Part shown: in pieces, positions 33,119 to 34,831 of the stretch
How the letters are laid out: each line of letters opens with the position of its first letter
How positions within the stretch are numbered: the stretch's first letter is position 1
Source of the DNA: Lysobacter arenosi
GTDB taxonomy: Bacteria > Pseudomonadota > Gammaproteobacteria > Xanthomonadales > Xanthomonadaceae
Length of the DNA: 64,000 nucleotides
Assembly (NCBI RefSeq): GCF_016613475.2
Contig: NZ_CP071517.1
Location: forward strand, 1,736,001 to 1,800,000
Direction of reading: 5' to 3'
Translations under genes and position numbers: made by a program
Notes under the pieces: generated by a model
Seen by the model: the letters and a program-made list of their open reading frames with translations, nothing else
Databases searched by the model: none
Told to the model about the DNA's origin: nothing

Positions 33119-33196
33119 CCGACATTCTGATTACCTGTACGTCCTGCACAAGCGCATACTTTGGCTGTCAGACACAAACCAGATTTGAGGCTCGAC

Positions 33197-34081
33197 ATGG
33201 CACTGCGCGCGGACTGGCTGCCGGCCCTGACGGCATTCGAATCGGCGGCCCGGCACCAGAACTTCGCCCACGCCGCCGAGGAGCTGCACCTGACCGCCAG
33301 CGCGGTCAGTCACCACGTACGCAAGCTCGAGTCGCGGCTGGGCGTGGCCCTGTTCCAGCGCCATGCGCGCGGAGTGGCCCTGACCGCCGACGGCCGCAAG
33401 CTGGCCGACGCCGCCGGCAGCGCCCTGGCCGACGTCGATGGCGTGCTGCGCAGCCTGCGCTCGGGGCGCGAGGACCACGACCGCATCCGCTTCACCACCC
33501 TGCACTCGCTCACCTACACCTGGCTGACTCCGCGCCTGCCCGAGTTCACCCAGGCGCACCCCAACCTGCGCCTGAGCATCGACACCGAGGTCGCACTGAC
33601 CCGCTTCGACGAACCCGGCCCGGATTTCGGCATCCGCCATGGACCAGGCCACTGGCCGGGACTGACCGCGCATTTCCTGATGGACGAAGGACTGCTGCCC
33701 GTGGTCTCGCCGAACTTTCCGGGAATCGACCAGATCCGGGAGCCGGCCGACGTCGCCAGGCAGCCGCTGATCTCCGACCACTCGCGGCAAGGCTGGCACG
33801 ACTGGTTCCGCGCCGCCGGCGTGCACGGCGCAAAGTTCGACGAACGCCTGACCTACACCGACAGCACCGGGGCGATGAACGCCGCCGTGTTCGGGATGGG
33901 CATCGCGCTCGCACGCTCGCGCATCGTCACCCCCTACCTCGAGAGCGGACGCCTGCAGCGGCTGCCGGTGCCGACGGTGAAGGCGCGCTGGGGCTACTAC
34001 GTGGTCTACCCCTCGCACCGGCGCCTGCGCGCGGCGGCGCAGACGTTTGTCGACTGGTTGCTGGCGCTGCCGAAGGATTGA
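33197..34081 (+). CDS. LysR-family transcriptional regulator (GcvA-like)
   Basis: 294 residues. The N-terminal winged helix is ALTAFESAARHQNFAHAAEELHLTASAVSHHVRKLESRLGVALFQRHARGVALTADG, then the periplasmic-binding-protein-like effector domain (FTTLHSLTYTWLTPRLPEFTQAHPNLRL). ATG 33197 follows GAGG; a TTG at 33161 in frame is less likely. Divergence from the cupin gene suggests that gene as its target. Confidence 0.92.
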   Translation: MALRADWLPALTAFESAARHQNFAHAAEELHLTASAVSHHVRKLESRLGVALFQRHARGVALTADGRKLADAAGSALADVDGVLRSLRSGREDHDRIRFTTLHSLTYTWLTPRLPEFTQAHPNLRLSIDTEVALTRFDEPGPDFGIRHGPGHWPGLTAHFLMDEGLLPVVSPNFPGIDQIREPADVARQPLISDHSRQGWHDWFRAAGVHGAKFDERLTYTDSTGAMNAAVFGMGIALARSRIVTPYLESGRLQRLPVPTVKARWGYYVVYPSHRRLRAAAQTFVDWLLALPKD

Positions 34082-34399
34082 CGCAGGTCTCCACCCTGGC
34101 GAGTGACCGCCTTCGCGGGAATGACGGCTTTCGAACGAAGACCGTGCAATGAACTGCCGGAGCGTCGTCCGCCGGGTCGGGGATTGCGTAGCAGTGGGCC
34201 ATGGATGGCCCACGCCCCGCCTTCGGACAGGATGTCCGAACGAAGGGGCGGAGCAATCCCCGGCCCGGCGGACGACGCCGCCACCGCAGCAGGAACCCCA
34301 CAGCGCAAAAAATTCCGGAAGCGAGTGTCGATCCCGCCCGTTCCCGTTCGTCATCCAGACAAGAGCCCCACTCCGGCGGCTCCAAGGCAGGAGACGACG
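34082..34399. other. Gene-free 318-base stretch holding a palindromic element
   Basis: No credible gene lies between the LysR gene and the first YCII gene. The first 50 bases carry a degraded REP-like fragment (CGCGGGAATGACGGC). The central 117 bases are the cloverleaf element listed separately. The last 120 bases contain a short A-rich patch (GCGCAAAAAATTCC at about 34304) that could be part of the promoter of the YCII/ECF cluster, and end with the AGGAG ribosome binding site. Confidence 0.7.
34162..34278. repeat. 117-bp cloverleaf-like palindromic element (possible MITE)
   Basis: The outer arms at 34162-34187 and 34253-34278 are 26 bases each and complementary at 25 of 26 positions. Between them sit two more hairpins: 34194-34213 (GTGGGCCAT-GG-ATGGCCCAC, a perfect 9-bp stem) and 34222-34240 (TTCGGACA-GGA-TGTCCGAA, a perfect 8-bp stem), the second extended by a GCCCC/GGGGC pair. 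The whole would fold into a three-way junction as DNA or RNA. It looks like a mobile non-coding repeat or a composite REP, but no target duplication is clear. Confidence 0.85.
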
Positions 34400-34831
34400 A
34401 TGCGCTTCATGGTGATAGTCCGCGCCACCGCGGAATCGGAAACCGGCGTAATGCCGAGCGAAGAACTGCTCACGCAGATGGGCAACTACAACGAAGAACT
34501 GGTCAAGGCCGGCATCATGGTCGGCGGCGAAGGCCTGCACCCGAGCAGCAAGGGCGCACGAGTGCGCTTCAGCGGCAAGCAGCGCAACGTCGTCGACGGC
34601 CCGTTCGCCGAGACCAAGGAACTCATCGCCGGCTACTGGCTGTTCGAGACCGGCTCACTGGCCGAAGCGATCGAATGGGTCAAGCGCGCACCCAACCTGT
34701 TCGAAGGCGAAGACAACGGCGAAGTCGAGATCCGCCAGGTCTACGAGACCGAGGACTTCGGCCCCGAACTCACCCCCGAACTGCGCGCCCAGGAAGACCG
34801 CCTGCGCGACCAGCTCGGCGAACGCCGCTGA
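34400..34831 (+). CDS. YCII-family protein with DGPF motif (1)
   Basis: 143 residues. The YCII/DGPF signature is intact: RFMVIVRATAESE opens the ferredoxin-like fold and D66-G-P-F69 stands in NVVDGPFAETKELIAGYWLFE. ATG 34400 has AGGAG upstream. DGPF proteins are the standard genomic partners of ECF42 sigma factors, and one such factor is encoded 2 kb downstream. Their biochemical role is not established. Confidence 0.92.
   Translation: MRFMVIVRATAESETGVMPSEELLTQMGNYNEELVKAGIMVGGEGLHPSSKGARVRFSGKQRNVVDGPFAETKELIAGYWLFETGSLAEAIEWVKRAPNLFEGEDNGEVEIRQVYETEDFGPELTPELRAQEDRLRDQLGERR

Follow-up and report, generated by a model that had tools for sequence, protein, structure and literature searches.

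A dispersed REP-like repeat of Lysobacter and related genera with a strand-polar closing stem and two conserved GGA loops, possibly an RsmA/CsrA-binding three-way junction

A frequent explanation of palindromes dispersed in bacterial genomes is selfish DNA that is moved by RAYT transposases. Among the described systems that come closest to the repeat reported here, the GTAG-type REPs and REPINs are short, dispersed, intergenic palindromes that occur as inverted pairs, carry compensatory changes, and are amplified within genomes (PMC3116915, PMC3733652; these and the papers below are cited for the available part of their text). The CGTC-type REPs, said in the available text to be without a dedicated transposase, are single short hairpins with a CGTC tag (PMC3733652). 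On the RNA side, the antagonist small RNAs of the Csr/Rsm system (RsmX/Y/Z and CsrB) contain several A(N)GGAX hairpins of mixed affinities resting on a C–G pair, and RsmZ, as far as that text describes it, comes from one gene that ends in a rho-independent terminator (PMC4005645). RsmU of Xanthomonas campestris, a member of the same bacterial family as Lysobacter, is a 3′UTR-derived RNA that sequesters RsmA, encoded at a single locus and said in the available text to be limited to Xanthomonas (PMC7694677).

The locus examined here lies in a window of 64,000 nucleotides (the whole stretch of Lysobacter arenosi DNA that was analysed) and belongs to a patchy, structure-conserved repeat family with covariation, polarity of the closing stem, and two conserved GGA loops. 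It resembles the GTAG REPs and REPINs in the properties listed above, but is a three-way junction of about 160 bp with free arms, G.U polarity, and GGA loops, and has no association with Y1/RAYT transposases. With the CGTC-type REPs, which often stand directly on its left, it shares the same intergenic mosaics, whereas structure and sequence differ. Several hairpins of the A(N)GGAX form are common to this repeat and the Csr/Rsm antagonists; unlike RsmZ, the repeat is dispersed, and terminator-like and promoter-like sites are absent at the window copy. The likeness to RsmU, drawn by description, lies in a predicted RsmA-binding RNA from gene 3′ regions, here in multiple copies.

Architecture of the window copy

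The gap of 318 bp that contains the palindrome is preceded by a LysR gene (33161–34081) and followed by a YCII-domain gene (from 34400), beyond which lie genes for a glyoxalase-like protein, a polyketide-cyclase-like protein, and a sigma factor with DUF6596. The outer inverted repeat recognized in the earlier note is borne out, with arms of 26 nt each (34162–34187 and 34253–34278; 96% complementary, 25/26) separated by a spacer of 65 nt and supported as the two halves of a closing stem by the inverted-repeat match, the fold, and covariation. Likewise, the 117 bases at 34162–34278 fold with the two inner hairpins into the three-way junction proposed there (as DNA, z = −11.2, with 0/200 shuffles matching its energy), and the predicted RNA fold of 34134–34300 is very stable (energy z = −8.5). 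The palindrome between these ends is real, but the conserved unit deduced from aligned copies measures about 160 bp (34136–34296), with an additional 26 nt on the left side and some 18 nt on the right.

All features are given on the + strand. The left module (34136–34161) has the consensus CGAAGACCgggCAATGAATTGCCGRA in aligned copies from the own genome (G000), a congener (G007), and L. prati, and forms a small hairpin. Inside the closing stem, hairpin 1 (34194–34213; stem GTGGGCC), assigned from the fold, loop counts, and the available text of PMC4005645, presents an ATGGAT hexaloop (34201–34206) of the ANGGAX type, with GGA at 34203–34205 and C34200–G34207 as the closing pair. The third helix (34214–34249) has the base GCCCC/GGGGC, in which 34214–34218 are paired with 34245–34249, and carries hairpin 2 (34222–34240; TTCGGACA/GGA/TGTCCGAA), whose AGGAU pentaloop (34229–34233) rests on the pair C34228–G34234 and is of the lower-affinity type in the available part of PMC4005645. 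The right module (34279–34296), also defined from aligned copies, has the family consensus CnnTCCGaAGnC and reads CGCCACCGCAGC... in the window copy. The GTAG that precedes hairpin 1 in the window copy is not a conserved tag, being GCAG in most L. prati copies and GGAG, GGAA, GTAA, or GGCA in other genera.

No promoter-like or terminator-like site, including a T-run terminator, was found in 34000–34450, and a scan of 33900–34700 against Rfam gave four matches only, all far below the gathering score. A degenerate CGTC-type REP (GCGGGAATGACGG half) at 34105–34126 adjoins the element on the left, and a similar layout is seen at many copies of G000 and L. prati.

Family extent and structure maintained under sequence change

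The own genome contains 24 full or nearly full copies (78–100% identity), plus fragments, and G007 contains 22. A role as a local or sigma-factor-specific boundary element, suggested earlier for the window copy, was therefore rejected, since copies occur throughout the genome and the orthologous LysR–YCII gap of G007 holds a remnant. BLAST searches of 12 genomes of the genus gave matches longer than 24 nt only in G000 and G007 (of the other 10 genomes, nine had none and one a 24-nt match), and this patchy distribution marks the repeat as dispensable. With a covariance model under strict filters, scored on at most 24 candidates per genome, so that copies per genome are at-least values, and with rough E-values, the family was found in 44/149 genomes and 21/54 genera sampled from the bacterial family; matches lean to the CATGGATG loop because the model was built from copies carrying it. 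A pattern scan, which itself requires CATGGATG, named as carriers L. prati (at least 55 copies), L. daejeonensis (G016), and L. ruishenii (G091); its three matches outside Lysobacter had no covariance-model match. Matches of the left-module pattern abut the element in 20/20 cases in G000 (18 full and two truncated) and in 13/16 in G007, where the other three are remnants with arm sequence, and on these counts it was rejected that the left module is an independent target repeat into which a core inserts. No description of this repeat was found in a literature search confined largely to papers outside subscription.

Relatives in other genera (in G014, G016, and G021) have the same junction and loops with other arms, each of which is self-complementary. 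In an alignment of 31 sequences over 46 pairs, 91.3% of the cells are paired and double changes occur at 34 pairs; in total, 282 cells are double-changed versus 89.9 in shuffles, a value attained by 0/500 shuffles. While the arms are largely conserved inside the subfamily of G000, G007, and L. prati, they are unrelated among genera and also among the copies of G016 and those of G091, in which each copy has its own closing stem of about 25 bp. Seven copies that are orthologous between L. daejeonensis and L. ruishenii (one duplicated row excluded) allow this change to be followed at the same sites: their closing stems comprise 168 pairs, of which 109 are unchanged, 31 differ on both sides and 16 on one side and are still paired, and 12 are unpaired in one species. 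The closing-stem arms thus turn over in place with pairing maintained. In a G014 subtype (L103, L106, and L115), the full CATGGATG loop is present in both hairpins.

The comparisons do not support a MITE with fixed ends, as the terminal repeats differ among genera and among the copies of G016 and G091, yet remain self-complementary; the search of relatives did yield many copies, but not identical outer ends across genera. The converse expectation, that the outer arms would be unrelated between genomes, was seen in part; nevertheless, arms are present and paired in the full-length matches, so that the inner hairpins are not independently recurring repeats, although truncated copies exist. The idea of a repeated element or a structured RNA is upheld, the element being repeated and structured and its RNA nature probable.

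Comparison of 26 G000 sites with G007 showed that eight match an element locus by both flanks and two more by one. At the window site, G007 has the left module and 12–13 nt of the arm, next to which stands the right module, an arrangement that looks like a deletion of the core; at L015/L182 (G000/G007), the REP and the element are entirely missing. Three remnants in G007 (L180, L194, and L361) retain the left module and the beginning of the left arm but have lost the hairpin core. Among the comparisons with G007 listed for 16 G000 sites, no target duplication is visible, and the junctions are obscured by intergenic turnover. Nine copies of L. prati have an identical 116-nt core and mostly different left modules, and at four of the seven orthologous G000/G007 pairs listed, hairpin 2 follows the genome's own type (the two copies of L024/L083 are of one type). 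Cores more uniform than their flanks, together with the genome-specific hairpin 2, point to conversion between copies. On the right flanks of some full copies of L. prati (L236, L207, L240, L252, and others), solo right-arm pieces (GGCCCGGCGGACGACGCC plus TTCGGAAG) are found downstream.

The same uniform cores, genome-own hairpin 2 types, and core-less G007 remnants would be expected if the repeat were a functionless palindrome, with arms made complementary by intra-palindrome template switching, cores homogenized by gene conversion, and copies deleted over time. This explanation appears improbable, as it accounts neither for GGA loops kept across genera with unrelated arms nor for an excess of G.U over A.C mismatches, absent from neighbouring REPs, that is described in the following section.

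Strand polarity and the GGA loops

Mismatches in the closing stem were counted on the drawn strand in 188 unique copies, obtained from 254 aligned matches (87+84+83) by removing rows shorter than 105 nt, identical sequences, and nine reverse-strand rows. They comprise 235 G.U and 18 A.C, and 23 of the 24 columns favour G.U, with one tie. Since the 188 copies are non-independent (G016 and G091 share orthologous copies), separate counts were made for distinct genome-position types (G.U 131 vs A.C 17) and for G016 and G091 alone (65 vs 8); without the pattern-scan loci, the values are 199 vs 15. If both DNA strands were of equal importance, G.U and A.C would be equal in number, and thus the drawn strand seems to be selected to fold. 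The polarity is absent from a control of 97 CGTC-type REPs of G000, G007, and L. prati (G.U 8 vs A.C 13), in which only stems with at least 5/7 Watson–Crick pairs were retained. Within the element, G.U also prevails where helix 3 begins, at its base (32 vs 9), no bias is present in hairpin 1 (5 vs 7), and the bias is reversed in hairpin 2 (13 vs 38), where 26 of the 38 A.C mismatches fall in two columns whose pairing is doubtful. The predicted stability of the drawn strand exceeds that of its complement in 163/187 copies. Such polarity fits RNA or one strand of DNA alike and does not separate the two.

The strand chosen independently by the G.U count is also the one that bears the GGA loops. 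Hairpin 1 reads CANGGA(T/C)G, with N being any of the four bases and mainly T, in 148/149 drawn-strand copies gathered with no motif filter, the sole exception being CATGCATG; this recount excludes the pattern-scan loci (L. prati and part of G016/G091), since that scan demands CATGGATG. With them included, ANGGAX on a C–G pair is found in 187/188 copies. In hairpin 2, most copies show C-[A GGA X]-G, and GGA is present in 180/188. According to the available text of PMC4005645, the high-affinity RsmE/CsrA consensus is an ANGGAX hexaloop that sits immediately on a stem, the RsmZ loops rest on a C–G pair, and loops without N (RsmZ SL3 and SL4) show weaker binding. The loops of the repeat match these published site types, hairpin 1 corresponding to the high-affinity ANGGAX and hairpin 2 to the lower-affinity AGGAX sites of RsmE/CsrA, and from their sequence the two look like candidate docking sites of the global RNA-binding regulator RsmA/CsrA. 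CsrA was found in 145/149 genomes of the bacterial family, including G000, and none of the four genomes without it is in the list of element carriers; this co-occurrence is uninformative because CsrA is near universal. Counting against the loop reading, RsmA binding by RsmU survives a change of its GGA motifs, as stated in the available part of PMC7694677.

Placement, spread, and possible function

Nearly all examined copies are intergenic, overlap with a gene predicted by a home-made codon score being found for 4/124 and 1/47 copies in two sets. The first set comprises 124 of 171 matches, the omitted ones being mostly second members of pairs and reverse-strand and repeated loci, and leaves unclassified the four overlapping a predicted gene and five at locus edges; in the second set of 47 copies, one has no left gene, and L005 was counted though it overlaps a predicted gene. 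The 161 classified copies lie between convergent (70), co-directional (81), and divergent (10) genes, so that gene 3′ ends are favoured. Between co-directional genes, 43 copies are in the sense and 38 in the antisense orientation, showing no transcription-strand bias. Such placement resembles that of REPs and does not favour a use of the repeat in one particular transcript sense. Neither GC skew of the genome pieces nor a dif-like pattern fixed the origin and terminus for an analysis of replication-strand bias.

The preference for 3′ ends, the few copies between divergent genes, and the very stable fold are what a bidirectional terminator or a stabilizer of mRNA 3′ ends serving convergent and tandem genes would display. 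We regard such a transcript-end element as unlikely; the T-run terminator is absent at the window copy, and a plain stabilizing stem needs neither conserved GGA loops nor a three-way junction.

The copies form mosaics with neighbour modules, often on the left, including CGTC-type REPs, GAGAGGGG-type repeats, and, in G000, a separate repeat of about 340 bp (GGAGGAGGTGGGGTGTA...GCGAAAGGAAGTGGT). In about nine G000 loci, the last precedes the element on its upstream side (L009, L012, L014, L016, L018, L019, and L020, at about 1130–1470, and partly L010 and L025), with no such extended repeat at the G007 loci. Close inverted pairs are also observed, mostly in the order (−) then (+) with the left modules facing each other, and commonly 55–300 bp apart (L269, L289, L293, L294, L317, and L320–L322; in L. 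prati, L243, L245, and L252); L326 (same strand) and L306 (opposite order) depart from this pattern. Carriage of a gene between paired copies was rejected, as no transposase was visible by eye in the one long interior examined, that of L318 (0.9 kb). In a search for the transposase family PF01797 (Y1/RAYT), members were found in 26/44 genomes with the element versus 66/105 others (p = 0.71), showing no association, and are lacking in 11/20 genomes with at least 10 listed copies, G000 and G007 among them. A RAYT-driven REP was rejected on the absence of PF01797 from G000 and the lack of association over the 149 genomes.

The main rival is a selfish single-stranded DNA element, similar to a REPIN or to the ends of IS200/IS605 elements, in which one strand would fold when exposed, for example on the lagging-strand template, and a transposase would read the hairpins. 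The REP-like placement (70/81/10), the tens of copies in some genomes, the inverted (−)(+) close pairs, and the G000 sites without a G007 counterpart are all in its favour, and REPIN hairpins too have compensatory changes (PMC3116915, available text). Against it are the missing association with Y1/RAYT, searched as PF01797, and ends that are not fixed across genera. Nor do we know of a DNA reader of ANGGAX loops. We consider this rival possible yet doubtful.

The explanation we prefer is a dispersed REP-like repeat, one strand of which, most likely as RNA, is selected to fold into an RsmA/CsrA-binding three-way junction; our confidence in it stands at one half, because the copies show no transcription-strand bias and the window copy has no promoter-like site. 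In the junction, the closing stem is long and free in sequence, and the two hairpins with GGA loops (ANGGAX and AGGAX) may together hold one RsmA (CsrA) dimer. Copies would be transcribed through read-through from adjacent genes and jointly provide an RsmA-binding sink, or act as local RsmA sites at 3′ ends, and the repeat would spread and become homogenized within genomes. We infer RNA rather than single-stranded DNA as the folding molecule, as well as the binding of RsmA and a sink or local regulatory role.

More speculative, and held only tentatively, is a genome-wide RsmA/CsrA sink, in which an RsmZ-like domain would be present as tens of self-amplifying 3′-end copies, and which in its boldest form would be SINE-like and spread via the folded RNA. 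Spread of this kind would account for the selection of one strand, for orientations that are random, and for cores more uniform than their flanks; if the sink exists, the level of free RsmA would be set jointly by the number of copies and by read-through of numerous operons.

The repeat thus represents a family without a RAYT link, in which structure is retained across genera while the letters turn over, the closing stem is strand-polar, and the loops are shaped like those to which a global regulator binds. Should RsmA bind, the Csr/Rsm network would include a mobile repeat, and repeats would be a place to look for the RsmA antagonists of Lysobacter.
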